Assembly: GCA_030715195.1 (NCBI GenBank)
Contig: JAUYVI010000004.1
Location: 520,845 to 584,844, forward strand
DNA from: Dongia sedimenti
Lineage (GTDB): Bacteria > Pseudomonadota > Alphaproteobacteria > Dongiales > Dongiaceae
Direction of reading: 5' to 3'
DNA length: 64,000 nt
A program made the translations under genes and the position numbers. Below the pieces are notes generated by a model. It was not told the origin of the DNA. It did no database searches and was given only the letters and a program-made list of their open reading frames with translations. Of the stretch, positions 3,543 to 16,106 are shown one piece after another. The first letter of the stretch is position 1, and each line of letters starts with the position of its first letter.

Positions 3543-4193
3543 ATGAGCGCATCTCTTCAGACCTATGTGCTGGCGCTTTCCGCGCTGTTCTCGATCGTCA
3601 ATCCGCTGGGCTCGGCTTTCATCGTCAGCACGGTGATCGCCGGCCGCGCCCATGCCGAGCGCGTGCAGCTGGCCGGCAAGATCGCGTTCTATTCCCTGAT
3701 CGTGATGCTGGTGGCGCTCTGGGGCGGCGCCTATGTGCTGAGCTTCTTCGGCATCAGCCTCTCCGCCTTGCGCATCTCCGGCGGGCTGGTCGTCGCGATC
3801 AACGCCTGGAGCCTGCTGCAGGCGCCGGAGACCACCGAGGCCCGCAAGCAGCAGCAGGCCGCGGAGGCCGAGGGCATCGACGCCGTCGCCTTCTTCCCGC
3901 TGACCATCCCCTTCACCACCGGACCCGGCACGATTGCGGTCGCAATCACCCTCGGTTCCAACCGGCCTTATGCCGGCGAGGAAGCGCTCGGCTTCGTGCT
4001 CGGCGTCTCGGCGGCGGCCCTGACCGTGGCGGCGATCGTCTGGCTGACTTACTCCTTCGCCGACCGGATCGAGGCGATGCTCGGCCGCTCCAAGGCCCAG
4101 GTCGTCTCGCGCCTCGCCGCCTTTCTGCTGCTTTGCGTCGGGACCCAGATCGCCTTGAGCGGCGTCGCCGATTTCGTTCGCAGCCTGCGCTGA
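3543..4193 (+). CDS. MarC family integral membrane protein
   Basis: A 216-residue inner-membrane protein with about six hydrophobic segments. It opens with the typical MarC signature FSIVNPLGSAFIV and has the central FFPLTIPFTTGPGTIAVAI motif, which is the most conserved block of the family. The middle loop (ETTEARKQQQAAEAEG) is polar and probably cytoplasmic. MarC proteins were once linked to multiple antibiotic resistance, but their transport substrate is not established. It starts at an ATG 71 bases after the SnoaL-like gene and could be read from the same transcript. Confidence 0.9.
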   Translation: MSASLQTYVLALSALFSIVNPLGSAFIVSTVIAGRAHAERVQLAGKIAFYSLIVMLVALWGGAYVLSFFGISLSALRISGGLVVAINAWSLLQAPETTEARKQQQAAEAEGIDAVAFFPLTIPFTTGPGTIAVAITLGSNRPYAGEEALGFVLGVSAAALTVAAIVWLTYSFADRIEAMLGRSKAQVVSRLAAFLLLCVGTQIALSGVADFVRSLR

Positions 4194-4293
4194 TTCGGAG
4201 GCCGCGGCCGGTGACGTCCGTCACGCCCGAAGCCCTAGGAGCCGCCCTCCGGAGGTGTTAGCTTCGCCGCGCATTTCAGGGGGGCTCCGCAAC

Positions 4294-4902
4294 ATGATCC
4301 TGGTCGGACAGTACGATTCGCCGTTCGTGCGCCGCGTGGCGATTTCTTTGCGCGTGCTCGGCTTCCGATACGAGCACGACACCCGCTCGGTGTTCGGCGA
4401 TTTCGACTCCATCCGCAAGACCAACCCGACCGGCCGCATTCCAGCGCTGGTCCTGGACGACGGTTCGGTGTTGGTCGATTCCGGCGTCATCCTCGATTAC
4501 CTGGACGAAACGGTAGGCCCGGAACGCGCGCTGATCCCGCGGTCCGGGCTGGCGCGGCGCGAGGTGCTGCACCGCGTGGCGCTGGCTTCCGCCGCCATCG
4601 ACAAGGCGGGTGCCGCCAATTACGAGCGGTTGCTGCGGCCGCCGCAGTATCAGTGGCCGGACTGGATCGCGCGGCTCCAGACCCAGGCGGTCGGTGCCAT
4701 CGCGGCACTCGAGGATCTCGCCTGGCCGGCAGAGGCGCCGCTCGACCAGGCGCAGATCACCACGGTCTGCCTCTTGCGCTATCTGGAACTCCGTTCGCCG
4801 GATCTGGCCCCGCGCGCGCGATTCCCGAGCCTCGCGGCGCTGGCCGCGCGCTGCGAGCAACGCGCGGAATTCCAGGCGACTTATCCGCCCGACGATGCCT
4901 GA
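4294..4902 (+). CDS. Glutathione S-transferase family protein
   Basis: A 202-residue GST-fold protein, distinct from the one at 2468. The N-terminal thioredoxin-like domain opens with QYDSPFVRRVAISLRVLGF, where Ser9 sits at the position used for thiolate activation in many bacterial GSTs. It continues with NPTGRIPALVLDDG and SGVILDYLDE, and the remaining residues are helical. The chosen ATG has AGGGGGGC upstream; a GTG at 4255 would extend it without matching the family. It overlaps the convergent reductase-like gene by 22 bases at the 3' ends. Substrate unknown. Confidence 0.88.
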   Translation: MILVGQYDSPFVRRVAISLRVLGFRYEHDTRSVFGDFDSIRKTNPTGRIPALVLDDGSVLVDSGVILDYLDETVGPERALIPRSGLARREVLHRVALASAAIDKAGAANYERLLRPPQYQWPDWIARLQTQAVGAIAALEDLAWPAEAPLDQAQITTVCLLRYLELRSPDLAPRARFPSLAALAARCEQRAEFQATYPPDDA

Positions 4903-5774
4903 ATGGATTTGCCCGCCGCCTTCTGCGCCTCGAAATCGGCGCGCAGGCCGGCAATCTCATCTGCCGACAGTCCGTCGACATTGCCATAGTCGCGCTTCCA
5001 GCCGGAATCGCCGGTCCAGCGCAACGGCGATTGCAGCACCGTCCGCGGCGCCGTGGCCTGTTCCAACAGATCGAACGCCAGGCCGAGCGTCAGGTCCTGC
5101 GACGCCGGATCGTTCGGCCGGCCCGCCGCATTGCCCAGTGGGAAATCCGAGAACAGGAAGCGCGGCGCGCCCGCCAGCTCCACGATGTCCTTCGCGGCGC
5201 CCATGATCACCGTCGGAAGACCGTTCGCCTCCAAATGCCGCGCGACCAATGTGAGGCTCTGATGGCAGACCGGACAATTCGGCACCAGCACGGCCGCATC
5301 GGCGCTGTCTTCGCGGCAGCGCGCGAGCACTTCGGGTGCGTATTCATCGCGGGTCACCCGCTGACTGCGATGGGTCGGCACGCCGTGGAAACGCGGCGCC
5401 ACGCTTCCGATCCGCGTCGTCCGTCGCAAGGCCGCCCGTGGAAAGAAGCTGCCCTGGTCGGCCGCCATCGTGTGTTTGAAGTCGATCGCGACGTGGTTGA
5501 TGCCGAGCGCCGGTTCCTCCGCCAGGGGCGCCGAATAGACCTCGAGGAACTTCGCCGCCCCGTTATAGGGCGCGCCGGGTTCCTGGTTGCCCTGGCCCGG
5601 CCGCTTCAGCGCAGCCGTGGTGATCAGCGCAATCCGGCAGGCGCCGAGCGGTCTTGCCAGCGGCTGGAACGGCACCGCGGCATGCTCGGCCCAGCGATAG
5701 GGTGCCGGATAGCCCAGGGCGGCGTAATAGTCGCGCGTGCGGTCGATGTAACGGATGGGGGCATCGGCTTCCAT
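4881..5774 (-). CDS. Cysteine homologue of glycine/sarcosine/betaine/D-proline reductase selenoprotein
   Basis: A 297-residue protein resembling the GrdB/PrdB component of clostridial glycine and D-proline reductases. Family-like features are the amino-terminal ALITTAALKRPGQ and a central VPNCPVCHQSLTLVARHLE, where a CxxC pair occupies the place at which the anaerobic enzymes carry selenocysteine. No in-frame TGA is needed, so this is a cysteine form. A later segment (FLFSDFPLGNAAG) agrees with aerobic proteobacterial homologues. No partner subunits (GrdA, GrdC, GrdE) are nearby, so a true Stickland reductase is unlikely. The neighbouring divergent gene encodes a flavin reductase-like protein. 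The reaction in this organism is unknown. Confidence 0.68.
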   Translation of the reverse strand: MEADAPIRYIDRTRDYYAALGYPAPYRWAEHAAVPFQPLARPLGACRIALITTAALKRPGQGNQEPGAPYNGAAKFLEVYSAPLAEEPALGINHVAIDFKHTMAADQGSFFPRAALRRTTRIGSVAPRFHGVPTHRSQRVTRDEYAPEVLARCREDSADAAVLVPNCPVCHQSLTLVARHLEANGLPTVIMGAAKDIVELAGAPRFLFSDFPLGNAAGRPNDPASQDLTLGLAFDLLEQATAPRTVLQSPLRWTGDSGWKRDYGNVDGLSADEIAGLRADFEAQKAAGKSIQASSGG

Positions 5775-5855
5775 GCCTCAGGCTTCCGCAAATCGCCGGC
5801 TTCCGCAAGCCGCTACCGGCGGCTAGTCTCGGCGCAAACACCGAAGGACAGTATC

Positions 5856-6476
5856 TTGCCGGAATACCATAGCTACGAACCGAAGCAGGGCCACGGCCTC
5901 GCCCATGATCCGCTGAACTCCATCGTCGTGCCGCGGCCGATCGGCTGGATCTCGACCCTGGATGGACAGGGCCGCCGCAACCTCGCGCCCTACAGCTTCT
6001 TCAATCTCTATTCCTACAAACCGCCGATCGTCGGCTTCTCCTCGAACGGCTGGAAGGACAGCGTGCGCAACATCGAGGAGACGCGGGAATTCGTCTGGAA
6101 CCTCGCCACCCGCGAGCTCGCCGAAGCGATGAACGAGACCAGTGCGCCCTTGCCGCACGGCACCGACGAGTTCGCGCGCGCCAAGCTCGAAGCTGCACCG
6201 TCGCGTCTGGTCAAGCCTGCGCGGGTCGCGGCGAGCCCGGTCGCCTTCGAATGCAAGCTGACCCAGATGATCCCGCTCAGCAACCTCGCCGGCGAGCCGG
6301 TCAATTCCTGGCTGACTTTGGGCGAGGTGGTCTGCATCCACATCGACAAAAGGCTGATCGTGGACGGCGTCTACGACACGATCCGCGCCCATCCGATCGC
6401 CCGCGGCGGCGGCCCGGCGGATTACTTCGCGGTCGAAGAGAGCGTGCGCTTCCGGATGACGCGCCCCAAAGCCTGA
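5856..6476 (+). CDS. Flavin reductase-like (FMN-binding split barrel) protein
   Basis: A 206-residue protein of the flavin reductase-like/DIM6-NTAB family. The hallmark N-terminal motif is present: DPLNSIVVPRPIGWISTLD, then NLAPYSFFNLYSYKPPIVGFS and the downstream NIEETREFVWNLAT. These proteins bind FMN and either reduce flavin or act as oxygenase partners. The start is taken as TTG at 5856 because GAAGGA lies seven bases upstream and no ATG or GTG fits the family's beginning. It is divergent from the reductase-like gene, with only about 80 bp between, so a functional link is possible but unproven. Confidence 0.85.
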   Translation: MPEYHSYEPKQGHGLAHDPLNSIVVPRPIGWISTLDGQGRRNLAPYSFFNLYSYKPPIVGFSSNGWKDSVRNIEETREFVWNLATRELAEAMNETSAPLPHGTDEFARAKLEAAPSRLVKPARVAASPVAFECKLTQMIPLSNLAGEPVNSWLTLGEVVCIHIDKRLIVDGVYDTIRAHPIARGGGPADYFAVEESVRFRMTRPKA

Positions 6477-6479
6477 GCC

Positions 6480-7133
6480 TCACCCGCCGAGCAGGGCGCG
6501 GATCTCGTCTCGGCCGCAGCGCAACGAGAGCTTCACATATGCTTCGCGTGTGTCGAAGACGTCGTGCTGGCGGTTCTTCTCATCGGCGAAGGCGTTGAGC
6601 ACACGCTGGATCGTGTCGCTCATTCTTGCTTCGAGCGCCTCGGTCGATGCATCGACAGCCTTCCCGACCATTCCCTTTCGCGCCAAGCCGGCGACCGCGG
6701 CTTCGACCCGCGCCTTCACCAGCGGCAGCATCTTGCGCTCGAGATCGACATGCTGCTGCTCGTGTTCTTCGATCTCCTGATTGGCGCAGGTGCCCCGCCG
6801 CAATTCCGAGGCGTAATGCACGACCAAGCCCAGCGTGATCTCGACGGCGACCTTGCTTAAGGTGGCGCAGTACTGCTTGCCGGTCTGCACGATGACGAAG
6901 CCATAGTTGATCTCGGTCTCGTGCGAGGCTTCCGTGAGGCCAAATGCGGACCAGTTCGGCCCCACGCCGCCGACCCGGGCTGCCAATGCGCTGCGGGAGA
7001 GCGACCGGTCGATGCGGAGCGGCGCCTCCCGGACCGCGACCGTGACCGCGGGATCCTCCTCGGCCGTGCAGGCCGCCGCCGGCGCGGCCACCGCCAGCAA
7101 CAGGACGAAAGCGAGGGGGACGGCGTGTCTCAT
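6480..7133 (-). CDS. Secreted DUF922-type putative zinc protease
   Basis: A 217-residue protein with a cleavable-looking signal peptide (hydrophobic core LAFVLLLAVAAPAAA, then CTAEED). The middle contains EIEEHEQQHVDLERKM, an HExxH zinc-protease motif; an arginine-cysteine pair (RRGTCANQ) sits just before it. This layout resembles the DUF922 family of predicted periplasmic metalloproteases. A long helical segment follows, with DTIQRVLNAFADEKNRQHDVFD. It probably acts in the periplasm; the substrate is unknown. Its 3' end lies three bases from the convergent flavin reductase gene. Confidence 0.7.
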   Translation of the reverse strand: MRHAVPLAFVLLLAVAAPAAACTAEEDPAVTVAVREAPLRIDRSLSRSALAARVGGVGPNWSAFGLTEASHETEINYGFVIVQTGKQYCATLSKVAVEITLGLVVHYASELRRGTCANQEIEEHEQQHVDLERKMLPLVKARVEAAVAGLARKGMVGKAVDASTEALEARMSDTIQRVLNAFADEKNRQHDVFDTREAYVKLSLRCGRDEIRALLGG

Positions 7134-12104: not shown

Positions 12105-12911
12105 ATGAGGATCAAGGTCGGCTACGAGTTCATCTACGACGTCCCGCAACCGACACCGATGATCCTGGTCCTGGGAACCCATTTCTCCCGCGCCTCCGAT
12201 GTCGAGGTCCCCGACCACCTGACTAGCAACCCGTCGGTGCCGATCGCCTTCTACCGCGACGGCTTCGGCAACTGGTGCAGCCGCCTGGTGGCGCCGCCCG
12301 GCCGCATCACCCTCACCGCCAGCGGCATCGTGCGCGACAGCGGCAAGCCGGATCCGGTCGTCCCCGAGGCGCGCCAGCTGGCCGTCGAGGACCTGCCGGC
12401 GGAAACGCTCGTCTTCCTGCTCGGCAGCCGCTATTGCGAGACCGACCTGCTGTCCGAGACCGCGTGGAAGCTGTTCGGCAACACGCCGACCGGCTGGGCG
12501 CGGGTGCAGGCGATCTGCGACTTCGTCCACAACCACATCACCTTCGGCTACCAGTTCGCGCGCCCGACCAAGACCGCCTTCGAGGTGTTCAACGAGCGCA
12601 AGGGTGTCTGCCGCGACTTCGCCCATCTCGGCATCGCGCTCTGCCGCGCCATGAACATCCCGGCCCGCTACTGCACCGGCTATCTCGGCGACATCGGCAT
12701 CCCGCCGCCGGAGGAGCCGATGGATTTCGCCGGCTGGATGGAGGTCTATCTCGACGGCCGCTGGTACACCTTCGACCCGCGCAACAACGTGCCCCGCATC
12801 GGCCGCATCGTGATCGCCCACGGCCGCGACGCCGCCGACGTGCCGATCACCTACACCTTCGGCCCGAACACGCTGGTCAGCTTCAAGGTCTGGACCGACG
12901 AGTTGAAGTGA
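12105..12911 (+). CDS. Transglutaminase-like domain protein
   Basis: A 268-residue protein related to the previous gene only in its core. It starts MRIKVGYEFIYDVPQPTPMI. The catalytic Cys is in ERKGVCRDFAHLGIALCRAM, and the Asp is in WYTFDPRNNVPRIGRIV. At the usual His position the motif reads FAGWMEVYLDG, where the catalytic His of the HAWxE pattern is replaced by Gly-Trp. It may therefore be catalytically altered, or the family may use another residue. The start ATG was chosen for the family-like beginning. The 191-base upstream gap contains a GC-skewed hairpin. The gene ends 26 bases before the convergent HEPN-like gene, which marks the left edge of the AT-richer island. Confidence 0.85.
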   Translation: MRIKVGYEFIYDVPQPTPMILVLGTHFSRASDVEVPDHLTSNPSVPIAFYRDGFGNWCSRLVAPPGRITLTASGIVRDSGKPDPVVPEARQLAVEDLPAETLVFLLGSRYCETDLLSETAWKLFGNTPTGWARVQAICDFVHNHITFGYQFARPTKTAFEVFNERKGVCRDFAHLGIALCRAMNIPARYCTGYLGDIGIPPPEEPMDFAGWMEVYLDGRWYTFDPRNNVPRIGRIVIAHGRDAADVPITYTFGPNTLVSFKVWTDELK

Positions 12912-12937
12912 CACCACTGAAGAGACTACGGGACCAT

Positions 12938-13822
12938 CTAGCAGGTGTCGTAATGGTCGATTAGCGCGGTGCAGAATGCCTTTGTAATATGAGTACTGAA
13001 AGTCTCAGCTATCAATTTTGAAAGCGCAATGGGTGGTAAGCGGTGGCCAAACTTGCCCCTGCGGAGTTCATCTTTAAATTCGTGATAGAGAGCGAAGATC
13101 TCAAACGAGCCGATGTGCTTAGACTTAAGCTGATTATCTATAGCCATTGCCGTTTGCTCGATTAGTGCAAGCCATTTCTTTAAGCGCTCCTCACTAAGGC
13201 GCTGCGATTGTGCAAGGACATGATCTCCTGCTCCCGGCCGAAGATGACGGCCAAACGCGTGCCCCACCGAATTTCTAAGTCTTCTAATACTCTCTAATTC
13301 CTTCAGGTTCTGCTCCAGGAAATCTGGAGCAGCGCCAAAAAGGCGCCGAAAATTCCTGAGGCGCACTTGCCAAGTTCCGCGGCAACAATCATTGACATGA
13401 TCTGCAACTATCATCTCTCGTCCAGACTTCAGCAGTTTGACGCCATCAAGCTGCTGTGAGAGGCCATAAACGAGAAAGGGGTCGGAACGCAGTGCGAGTG
13501 TAACAGCTTCCCTGATGTATACTTCGAGATAGGATGAAGCGGATAAGACCATTCCAAGCCTCACCCAATTAGAAAACTCGTTAAGACCTCGCCGCCACTC
13601 ACCGACAGTCGGAGGGGGCCGACGCGCATCGTCTCCAGAAAGGACAAGCGCTGCTTGAGTGTTCTCGCCTTTAGGTATTGCCTTTGTCGAGTATCTAACG
13701 AACTGATATGCGGGTACGTATGACCAATATAGGTCATTCAGTTCAGTGTGATGTTTTTTGAATTTGGACAGCGTGAACGTATTGAGCGGAAAGTTGAACC
13801 TAGAAAAGCTAATTCGTGTCAT
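12938..13822 (-). CDS. HEPN-like protein, putative RNase or defence partner
   Basis: A 294-residue, mostly helical protein with no membrane segment. Residues 179-190 read IRRLRNSVGHAF: Arg183, four residues, His188, the RxxxxH pattern typical of HEPN ribonuclease motifs. Upstream, ASSYLEVYIREAVTLAL (about 95-111) resembles the first long helix of HEPN proteins. The base composition is clearly AT-richer than the neighbouring genes, which suggests transfer. It is divergent from the Shedu-like gene across 114 bp. HEPN proteins cut RNA in many toxin-antitoxin and anti-phage systems. Here that role is inferred from the motif and context only; the protein could also be a non-catalytic member. I do not recognise a named family for the full length. 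Confidence 0.55.
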   Translation of the reverse strand: MTRISFSRFNFPLNTFTLSKFKKHHTELNDLYWSYVPAYQFVRYSTKAIPKGENTQAALVLSGDDARRPPPTVGEWRRGLNEFSNWVRLGMVLSASSYLEVYIREAVTLALRSDPFLVYGLSQQLDGVKLLKSGREMIVADHVNDCCRGTWQVRLRNFRRLFGAAPDFLEQNLKELESIRRLRNSVGHAFGRHLRPGAGDHVLAQSQRLSEERLKKWLALIEQTAMAIDNQLKSKHIGSFEIFALYHEFKDELRRGKFGHRLPPIALSKLIAETFSTHITKAFCTALIDHYDTC

Positions 13823-13853
13823 GAGATCCCCACACGCCTAAGCTGTTGTCCGT

Positions 13854-13868
13854 TTCCGGCTACCGGAA
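13854..13868. promoter_or_regulatory. Perfect inverted repeat between the HEPN and Shedu genes
   Basis: TTCCGG, CTA, CCGGAA lies near the middle of the 114-bp divergent gap. It is the only strong palindrome there, so it is a candidate operator for controlling both genes, or a shared transcript-end hairpin. No regulator gene was identified in the island. Confidence 0.4.
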
Positions 13869-13936
13869 GAGTTCTCCGATGTCGTACAATAAGGTCACGC
13901 TAGAGAAGATAGACCTACTCTGACTTCAACTGAAAA

Positions 13937-14971
13937 ATGAAGACAAGAGCCAGCTTCGACGAATTCCTCAGGGAGGCTATAGCTGATTCGGGCAATAAAT
14001 CGCTTGCTCAATTGGCCGAGTTTGCCAAAGACGAGGATGAGACTTTTCTGAAGAGTCCTGCGATTGGCGCGCTTATATGTTGGGGTGAACCCGGTCTGAA
14101 AGCCATAAGGCAAATCGCTCTCGACAATCCGACATCAAAAAACATTTCGGCAGCTCTAAAGGCGCTGTCGACAGTAGCCTCCGGCGTACTATTGCCTGCT
14201 TCATTGTTGTTCATCCAAGACGAGGAATTAATTCGATCTATAAACCAGCGCCTCGAAACCCGAACCCTACAATCAGCTGGGAGGCGCGAGCTCGCGGAAC
14301 TAGTGCTTTCATTATCAGAGGATGATCTGCTTATTCCTCTTGGCACTGCCTTTAGTCAGCTGTCATTTGGTGGCCAAGACCTAACTTCCGAGTTAGTCGC
14401 TGCCCTATCATCGAAGTGGCTTGGTTTCGGTCCTCCCGTGCTTCAAAGATATGAAGGCTTGCTCTTAAACGCTCCTGACAATGAGCAAGTCTTTCAGAAA
14501 TTTTTCATCGAATTTCCTCATTTGTTAGACCCCGCGGTCGTTCATATGTGGAGCGAGCCGGATTTCCATGGTGCTTTCGCTCCGGACTTTCTAATACGGA
14601 GAGCAGATGATACGTACCTCATTGTTGAGATTGAGAAGCCATCGAAGAATCTTATAACTGCAGGTGGTCAATTGACCACCGAGGCAACGCACGCCGAGAA
14701 ACAAGTGATCGAATACAAGAATTTCTTGAATGAGCGAATTCTGGAGGTCAGATCGCATTTTCCCAATTATAGAGAACCTGACTGCCTCGTTGTGATTGGC
14801 CTTGAGCGTTCTTTGATGCCTGCGAAGCGCAACGCCCTACGACAGATCAATGACTCTCGACAGAGGATAAGAATTGTTGGCTTCGACTGGCTCCTAGATA
14901 GGGCAAATGTGGTGCTAGGCAATGTCACCAGCGGTAAGGTGACTGTTGAGACCGGTTTTCGAGTAATATAA
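13937..14971 (+). CDS. Shedu (SduA, DUF4263) family nuclease-like defence protein
   Basis: A 344-residue protein. Residues 1-180 are helical with HEAT-like stretches (GEPGLKAIRQIALDNPTS, AALKALSTVAS). Residues 181-340 match the SduA C-terminal PD-(D/E)XK domain: NEQVFQKFFIEFPHLLDP (with Glu183), PDFLI with Asp217, then LIVEIEKPSKNLIT with Glu231, Glu233 and Lys234. It continues with GQLTTEATHAEKQVIEYKNF, the typical Shedu glutamine helix. The VEIEKP form, instead of EIK, is one I recall from other Shedu members. Shedu is a single-gene anti-phage system that acts as a nuclease. The N-terminal domain differs between members and probably senses the trigger. The low G+C fits acquired defence DNA. 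Confidence 0.8.
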   Translation: MKTRASFDEFLREAIADSGNKSLAQLAEFAKDEDETFLKSPAIGALICWGEPGLKAIRQIALDNPTSKNISAALKALSTVASGVLLPASLLFIQDEELIRSINQRLETRTLQSAGRRELAELVLSLSEDDLLIPLGTAFSQLSFGGQDLTSELVAALSSKWLGFGPPVLQRYEGLLLNAPDNEQVFQKFFIEFPHLLDPAVVHMWSEPDFHGAFAPDFLIRRADDTYLIVEIEKPSKNLITAGGQLTTEATHAEKQVIEYKNFLNERILEVRSHFPNYREPDCLVVIGLERSLMPAKRNALRQINDSRQRIRIVGFDWLLDRANVVLGNVTSGKVTVETGFRVI

Positions 14972-15074
14972 TCAACCGCTTCGAGGTATCTCGACGGTCC
15001 GACGCTCGACTTGGCCGCTCGGACAACGCGATGCTAAGTTGTGGCGCAGAACGTCGTAACCGTCCTGGCTCAGT

Positions 15075-15941
<867 letters not shown>

Positions 15942-15965
15942 AATGAGCGACTTCGTCGCGCACTC

Positions 15966-16080
15966 TTTGTTCCCCTCACCCTGTCCCTCTCCCACAAGGG
16001 GAGAGGGGACGCTGATGCCAACGCTCGGTCGAGAGCCCCTCTCCCCTTGTGGGAGAGGGGTTGGGGTGAGGGGTACAAAA
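15966..16080. repeat. Long inverted repeat between the MoxR and VWA genes
   Basis: The left arm is 15966-16008 and the right arm 16036-16080. They are nearly perfect reverse complements, with blocks such as CTCTCCCACAAGGGGAGAGG, and the spacer is 27 bases. Each arm itself contains a smaller palindrome. No open reading frame of note is inside. It looks like a miniature palindromic element inserted in the operon gap. Confidence 0.8.
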
Positions 16081-16106
16081 ACAAGACTCAAGCATAGCGC
16101 TATCTA

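Follow-up and report, generated by a model that had tools for sequence, protein, structure and literature searches.

An AT-richer, probably acquired island carries a Shedu-type nuclease gene and a HEPN-type gene back to back, as two candidate single-gene anti-phage systems

The window analysed here (the whole 64-kb stretch of DNA, from a genome of 6.1 Mb in 26 contigs) contains an AT-richer segment that we consider likely to be a 2.1-kb laterally acquired defence island, in which two independent single-gene anti-phage systems would have come to lie back to back by chance. One gene encodes a protein with the SduA_C nuclease domain of Shedu, and the other encodes a HEPN-type protein predicted to cleave RNA. 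The segment and its parts are:

12912..15010, no strand: AT-richer segment, defined by composition; it starts directly 3' of the transglutaminase stop codon, and its right border is approximate
12938..13822, minus strand: HEPN-type protein of 294 aa, predicted metal-independent endoRNase (open reading frame, motif, weak Pfam match, all-helical model)
13823..13936, no strand: gap of 114 bp common to both divergent genes (from the ORF coordinates)
13937..14971, plus strand: SduA_C (Shedu) protein of 344 aa, above the Pfam SduA_C cut-off; nuclease domain at about 182-320, with D217, E231, E233 (replacing K) and Q256

The two divergent ORFs, 114 bp apart, fill the AT-richer segment, as described in the initial annotation. 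The G+C content of 12912-14971 was 48.5% (0.485), compared with a mean of 66.2% (0.662) elsewhere in the window. Among 1157 windows of the same length outside the segment, taken in 50-base steps, the minimum G+C was 0.625, the mean 0.662 and the standard deviation 0.017. The difference, first estimated at about 50% against about 67%, is thus real and well beyond chance. The 1-kb bins covering 13001-15000 had values of 0.487 and 0.486, compared with 0.616 for the lowest of the other 62 bins. At 12900 the G+C fraction, taken in 100-bp steps, dropped from 0.69 to 0.47; 0.67 was regained by 15101-15200. On the left, the segment is bordered by a transglutaminase stop codon; on the right, the border lies within the 103 bp preceding a MoxR-type AAA gene. 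The GC3 values were 0.492 for the HEPN-type gene and 0.487 for the SduA_C gene, compared with 0.89-0.94 for four flanking genes. Judged by its composition, the segment 12912..15010 was probably acquired laterally. Only short, imperfect pairs of direct repeats flank the segment, and no tRNA gene was found at its border or elsewhere in the 64-kb window. No sigma-70-type promoter-like site was listed inside the gap between the two genes, and the two promoter-like sites in 12850-15150 represent no excess over the shuffle mean of 1.8.

The initial annotation described the island as splitting a transglutaminase/MoxR neighbourhood, which the relatives do not bear out. Among 17 genomes of the family, with the window's genome included, MoxR was found in 11 at E ≤ 1e-60 and the transglutaminase in four at E ≤ 1e-40, and the three relatives with both genes (G003, G006 and G015) carry them on different contigs. 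In each of seven MoxR stretches compared at the nucleotide level, the VWA gene follows MoxR, and no transglutaminase match lies beside MoxR. Because the relatives carry the transglutaminase and MoxR genes apart, no empty site can be demonstrated, and the relatives seen do not conserve the junction at which the island sits. A search of 96 genomes with the window protein P0001 found the HEPN gene only in the window's own genome. In the class, where 385 genomes were searched, the five-row HEPN profile A1 matched the window's genome and gave one further, weak match (59 positions, E 6.9e-4), and the Shedu protein matched the window's genome and, at low similarity, two more, of which one belongs to the same genus. 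The island is therefore specific to the window's genome among the sampled genomes. Beyond the island, palindromic repeats (CCCTCTCCC...GGGAGAGGG) are present at 15954-16087 between the MoxR and VWA genes, with two exact copies compared with none in 100 shuffles. Weak Rfam matches to six microRNA families and one frameshift element fell on this repeat and were taken as spurious.

The 344-aa protein matched Pfam SduA_C over residues 182-320 with an E value of 3.2e-16 and 60.3 bits against a cut-off of 27, and 17 PADLOC SduA models were listed at E ≤ 1, the best at 4.7e-16. The SduA C-terminal nuclease of the initial annotation is thus supported as a domain. Its reading of 'VEIEKP' as the canonical motif is not, as this stretch is E-x-E followed by K and the canonical motif is E-x-K. 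When 14 SduA_C proteins chosen from the collected loci were aligned, D217, E231 and the helix glutamine Q256 were found in all 14, and the third active-site position was E (E233) in 10, including the window's protein, and K in four. E-x-E looks like a clade feature because this glutamate is common to 10 of the 14 proteins. A similar active-site arrangement is found in the restriction enzyme BamHI. The E-x-E group comprises the window's gene at 13937-14971 and those of L020, L049, L050, L051, L054 and L055-L058. A second, higher-scoring SduA_C protein is encoded in the window's genome (L018, contig 26, 63806-64267), in an open frame of 440 aa with E-x-K at the nuclease centre.

The glutamate at the third catalytic position bears on whether the two genes are inactive passengers, the nuclease being dead through E-x-E in place of E-x-K or the HEPN protein being non-catalytic. 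A Vibrio SduA whose N-terminal part is an ATPase protects alone, and its nuclease lysine is essential (PMC12137116). The nearest HEPN relative has an internal stop. However, both frames in the window are intact, the glutamate is an apparent clade feature and the HEPN motif is invariant; we regard inactivity as very unlikely.

The N-terminal half of the SduA_C protein (residues 1-176) matched no Pfam family at E ≤ 10, a null result of limited reach because HMMER filters remove most matches above about 0.1. A single-sequence structure model had a mean pLDDT of 36.3, too poor for judging the N-terminal half or for a fold search. This half may be HEAT-like, as was proposed at first, a proposal to which the profile searches lent no support. 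For both the SduA_C protein and the HEPN-type protein, NCBIfam listed no family at E ≤ 1 and a PDB sequence search returned nothing meaningful.

The 294-aa protein carries the motif R180-x2-R183-N184-x3-H188-x-F190-x-R192. Residues R180, R183, N184, H188, F190 and R192 were invariant in all 11 aligned family members (alignment A5, which holds 11 of 13 sequences including the window's, those of L014 and L016 being omitted as partial). The RxxxxH HEPN-type motif recognised in the initial annotation is thus R183-N184-x3-H188 and belongs to a conserved block. This RNxxxH motif contains the Rx4-6H signature, with a polar residue after R, which is described as the mark of active HEPN RNases (PMC3710099). 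Pfam HEPN_RiboL-PSP matched the window's protein with an E value of 1.9e-4 and 21.8 bits, under the curated cut-off of 28.4; it matched six of the 11 family members at E ≤ 0.01 (best 4.3e-7), and HEPN_Cthe2314 matched one of the 11. The PADLOC model RTasHEPN also matched six of the 11 at E ≤ 0.01 (best 3.8e-5), the value for the window's protein being 0.02. No model scored over its cut-off when four profile libraries were searched with the window's protein. Because the profile score is under the cut-off, we call the protein HEPN-type by motif and do not file it as a PF18735 member. A structure model built from seven sequences was all-helical with a mean pLDDT of 82.5. A Foldseek search with this model returned nothing at E ≤ 0.001, whether from the PDB or among viral entries, and so did not confirm the HEPN fold independently; a Csm6 chain at rank 5 had an E value of 2.2, which is not significant. 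The predicted HEPN assignment stands by the motif and the weak profile matches, not by fold.

Homologues of the HEPN-type protein were found in 12 plasmid records, four of which were examined, and at eight genomic loci, a scattered set that includes several Proteobacteria and a Paenibacillus. Nine of the 12 plasmid records are from Enterobacterales and show an identical 32.4% identity; one of these nine was examined. Identity reaches only about 53% even with the closest relative found, whose copy has an internal stop. In the L012 genome, the gene copy has one internal stop and the frame used lacks the N-terminus, and in the L014 and L016 genomes the gene lies in two pieces at contig ends.

Considering that the RiboL-PSP HEPN family is described as distantly related to AbiF/AbiD (PMC3710099), and that an antitoxin RNA adjoins AbiF (PMC12373285), the HEPN protein could be the toxin of a toxin-antitoxin module, with either an RNA, as for AbiF, or a small protein as antitoxin and with the Shedu gene as an accidental neighbour. 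However, nucleotide similarity between HEPN loci, compared together with flanks of up to 3 kb, was confined to the HEPN coding region. The informative pairs were six among four loci (L005, L010, L011 and L014), in which the gene is 69-76% identical in DNA and the 3-kb flanks gave no reported match, although a faster-evolving RNA could escape such a comparison. One L012 match starts 39 bases before the frame used. Rfam gave no credible match near the HEPN gene, and a conserved RNA partner was rejected because no nucleotide similarity was reported outside the HEPN coding region. On balance, the toxin-antitoxin module appears unlikely. In favour of independent genes, a comparison of 880 stop-to-stop frames of at least 80 aa, drawn from 12 kb of the window and the 12 other HEPN loci, showed that apart from the HEPN gene only two locus pairs have genes in common, none of them shared with the window.

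Integrase or insertion-sequence genes were found nearby in three of the four plasmid loci examined. On an Enterobacter plasmid (L003), two annotated integrase genes are situated about 1 kb from the HEPN family gene at 5980-6873. Carriage by phages or viruses was rejected, since no relative of the window proteins P0001 or P0002 was found in phage records and none was confirmed in viral contigs. The HEPN stretch was AT-richer than its own locus in 12 of 12 cases, by 0.4-16.5 points and by at least 5 points in eight, with only part of the HEPN gene measured in L014 and L016. Low G+C is therefore usual for the HEPN gene, and it is by itself no proof of arrival together with the Shedu gene. The matching GC3 of the two genes is compatible with a single arrival.

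The initial annotation suggested that the two genes could form an undescribed two-component version of Shedu. In such a system, the nuclease would act on phage DNA, and the HEPN RNase would be a linked back-up effector or would be controlled through the gap. The genes are indeed divergent, 114 bp apart and alike in GC3, and they share one sharply bounded AT-rich segment. Moreover, standalone HEPN RNases and Shedu-type nucleases both appear among the auxiliary effectors of BREX-type systems in a review (PMC12839542), so that both kinds of protein gather in defence islands.

However, the two genes were not found together in any other record searched. SduA_C was absent from all 12 other HEPN-bearing records, comprising eight genomes and four whole plasmid records; for the plasmids the search covered the plasmid record alone, not the host's other replicons. 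The window's genome, as the positive control of this search, matched twice, and the 12 HEPN loci gave no tblastn match at E ≤ 0.01 to any of 14 SduA proteins. In the reverse direction, the A5 profile found no HEPN family member in the 10 other Shedu-type genomes (nine with an SduA_C match, two of these under the family cut-off, and one matching the window's Shedu protein), and the nine HEPN-bearing genomes used as the control all matched. At the level of neighbourhoods, the HEPN profile had no match within up to about 1.5 kb of the 11 other genomic Shedu-type sites, which include the second SduA_C copy of the window's genome, the window's own site serving as positive control. The HEPN gene was likewise absent from nine of nine plasmid Shedu neighbourhoods examined, namely those in four of the seven records matching the window's Shedu protein and in five more among the 73 matching a broader Shedu query.

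SduA_C matches were found in 10 of the 385 genomes of the class; about 0.3 chance co-occurrences are therefore expected in 12 records, and the observed zero fits independence. With zero in 12 independent records, the true rate of co-occurrence would be at most about 22% (95% bound); because some of the records are close relatives, the bound is weaker. The zero counts speak against an obligate pairing but do not speak against a rare one. We therefore rejected the two-component Shedu-HEPN system on co-occurrence and consider it extremely improbable. The initial annotation had itself named near-absence of co-occurrence as evidence against its proposal, and this is the pattern observed. Lying side by side in a single genome thus says little about whether two defence genes form one system.

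The near-equal GC3 and the short divergent gap do count against independence, as a co-acquired unit would show both. The remoteness of the closest HEPN relative found and the interruption of its copy leave a small probability for a pairing formed in this lineage. Such a lineage-specific divergent pair would consist of an E-x-E nuclease and a HEPN RNase co-regulated via the 114-bp gap, too recent or too rare to be seen in the sampled genomes; if true, it would mean a layered attack on DNA and RNA, but we give this reading very little weight.

Two Rhizobiaceae plasmids (L056 at 4043-6275 and L057 at 3929-6394) carry a Shedu gene convergent to a HEPN/Toprim-associated gene, with ABC-three-component genes alongside. 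This pair was rejected as a parallel, since the genes are convergent and not divergent and the HEPN-named protein is HEPN_Toprim_N, as seen in the one of the two copies that was scanned; the R[NDH]xxxH motif is absent from both the L056 and L057 copies. No description of a Shedu-HEPN pair was found in a full-text literature search and listings whose coverage excludes the main Shedu mechanism papers.

We favour two separate systems, each of which may act by itself. The N-terminal half of the SduA_C protein would sense some feature that accompanies phage, possibly a DNA end, and would thereby release the C-terminal PD-(D/E)xK-fold nuclease, which would cut phage DNA. In E. coli SduA, an N-terminal clamp binds DNA ends and the protein nicks near the end (PMC12904381). 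The HEPN protein would act as a dimer whose composite RNxxxH site cuts RNA, and this cleavage may halt the growth of infected cells (abortive infection). Domains resembling HEPN were present in six of the 21 systems of one E. coli screen (PMC9519451). The more useful by-products of the analysis are a HEPN-type family without an over-cut-off model in the four profile libraries searched and a Shedu clade in which E-x-E replaces E-x-K.

Among known systems, the RT-associated HEPN of DRT systems (PADLOC RTasHEPN) resembles the HEPN-type family in that six of the 11 members match it, but the match of the window's protein reaches only E 0.02; no reverse transcriptase beside the HEPN family genes was named in the plasmid annotations or in a Pfam scan of eight proteins. 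HEPN_RiboL-PSP (PF18735), the distant relative of AbiF/AbiD, shares the R-N-x3-H motif, the helical character and a weak profile similarity in six of the 11 members. The window's protein differs from it in scoring under the cut-off and in having no L-PSP domain, and no antitoxin was seen. Shedu proteins are described in two studies as single-gene nucleases with diverse N-terminal domains (PMC12137116, PMC12904381). The 344-aa protein differs from known Shedu (SduA; PF14082 SduA_C/DUF4263) in an N-terminal half without a Pfam match and in the E-x-E found in 10 of the 14 proteins compared, whereas the genome's own second SduA_C copy has E-x-K. It resembles Shedu in its C-terminal SduA_C domain over the cut-off, in its unrelated N-terminal half and in being encoded by a single gene.
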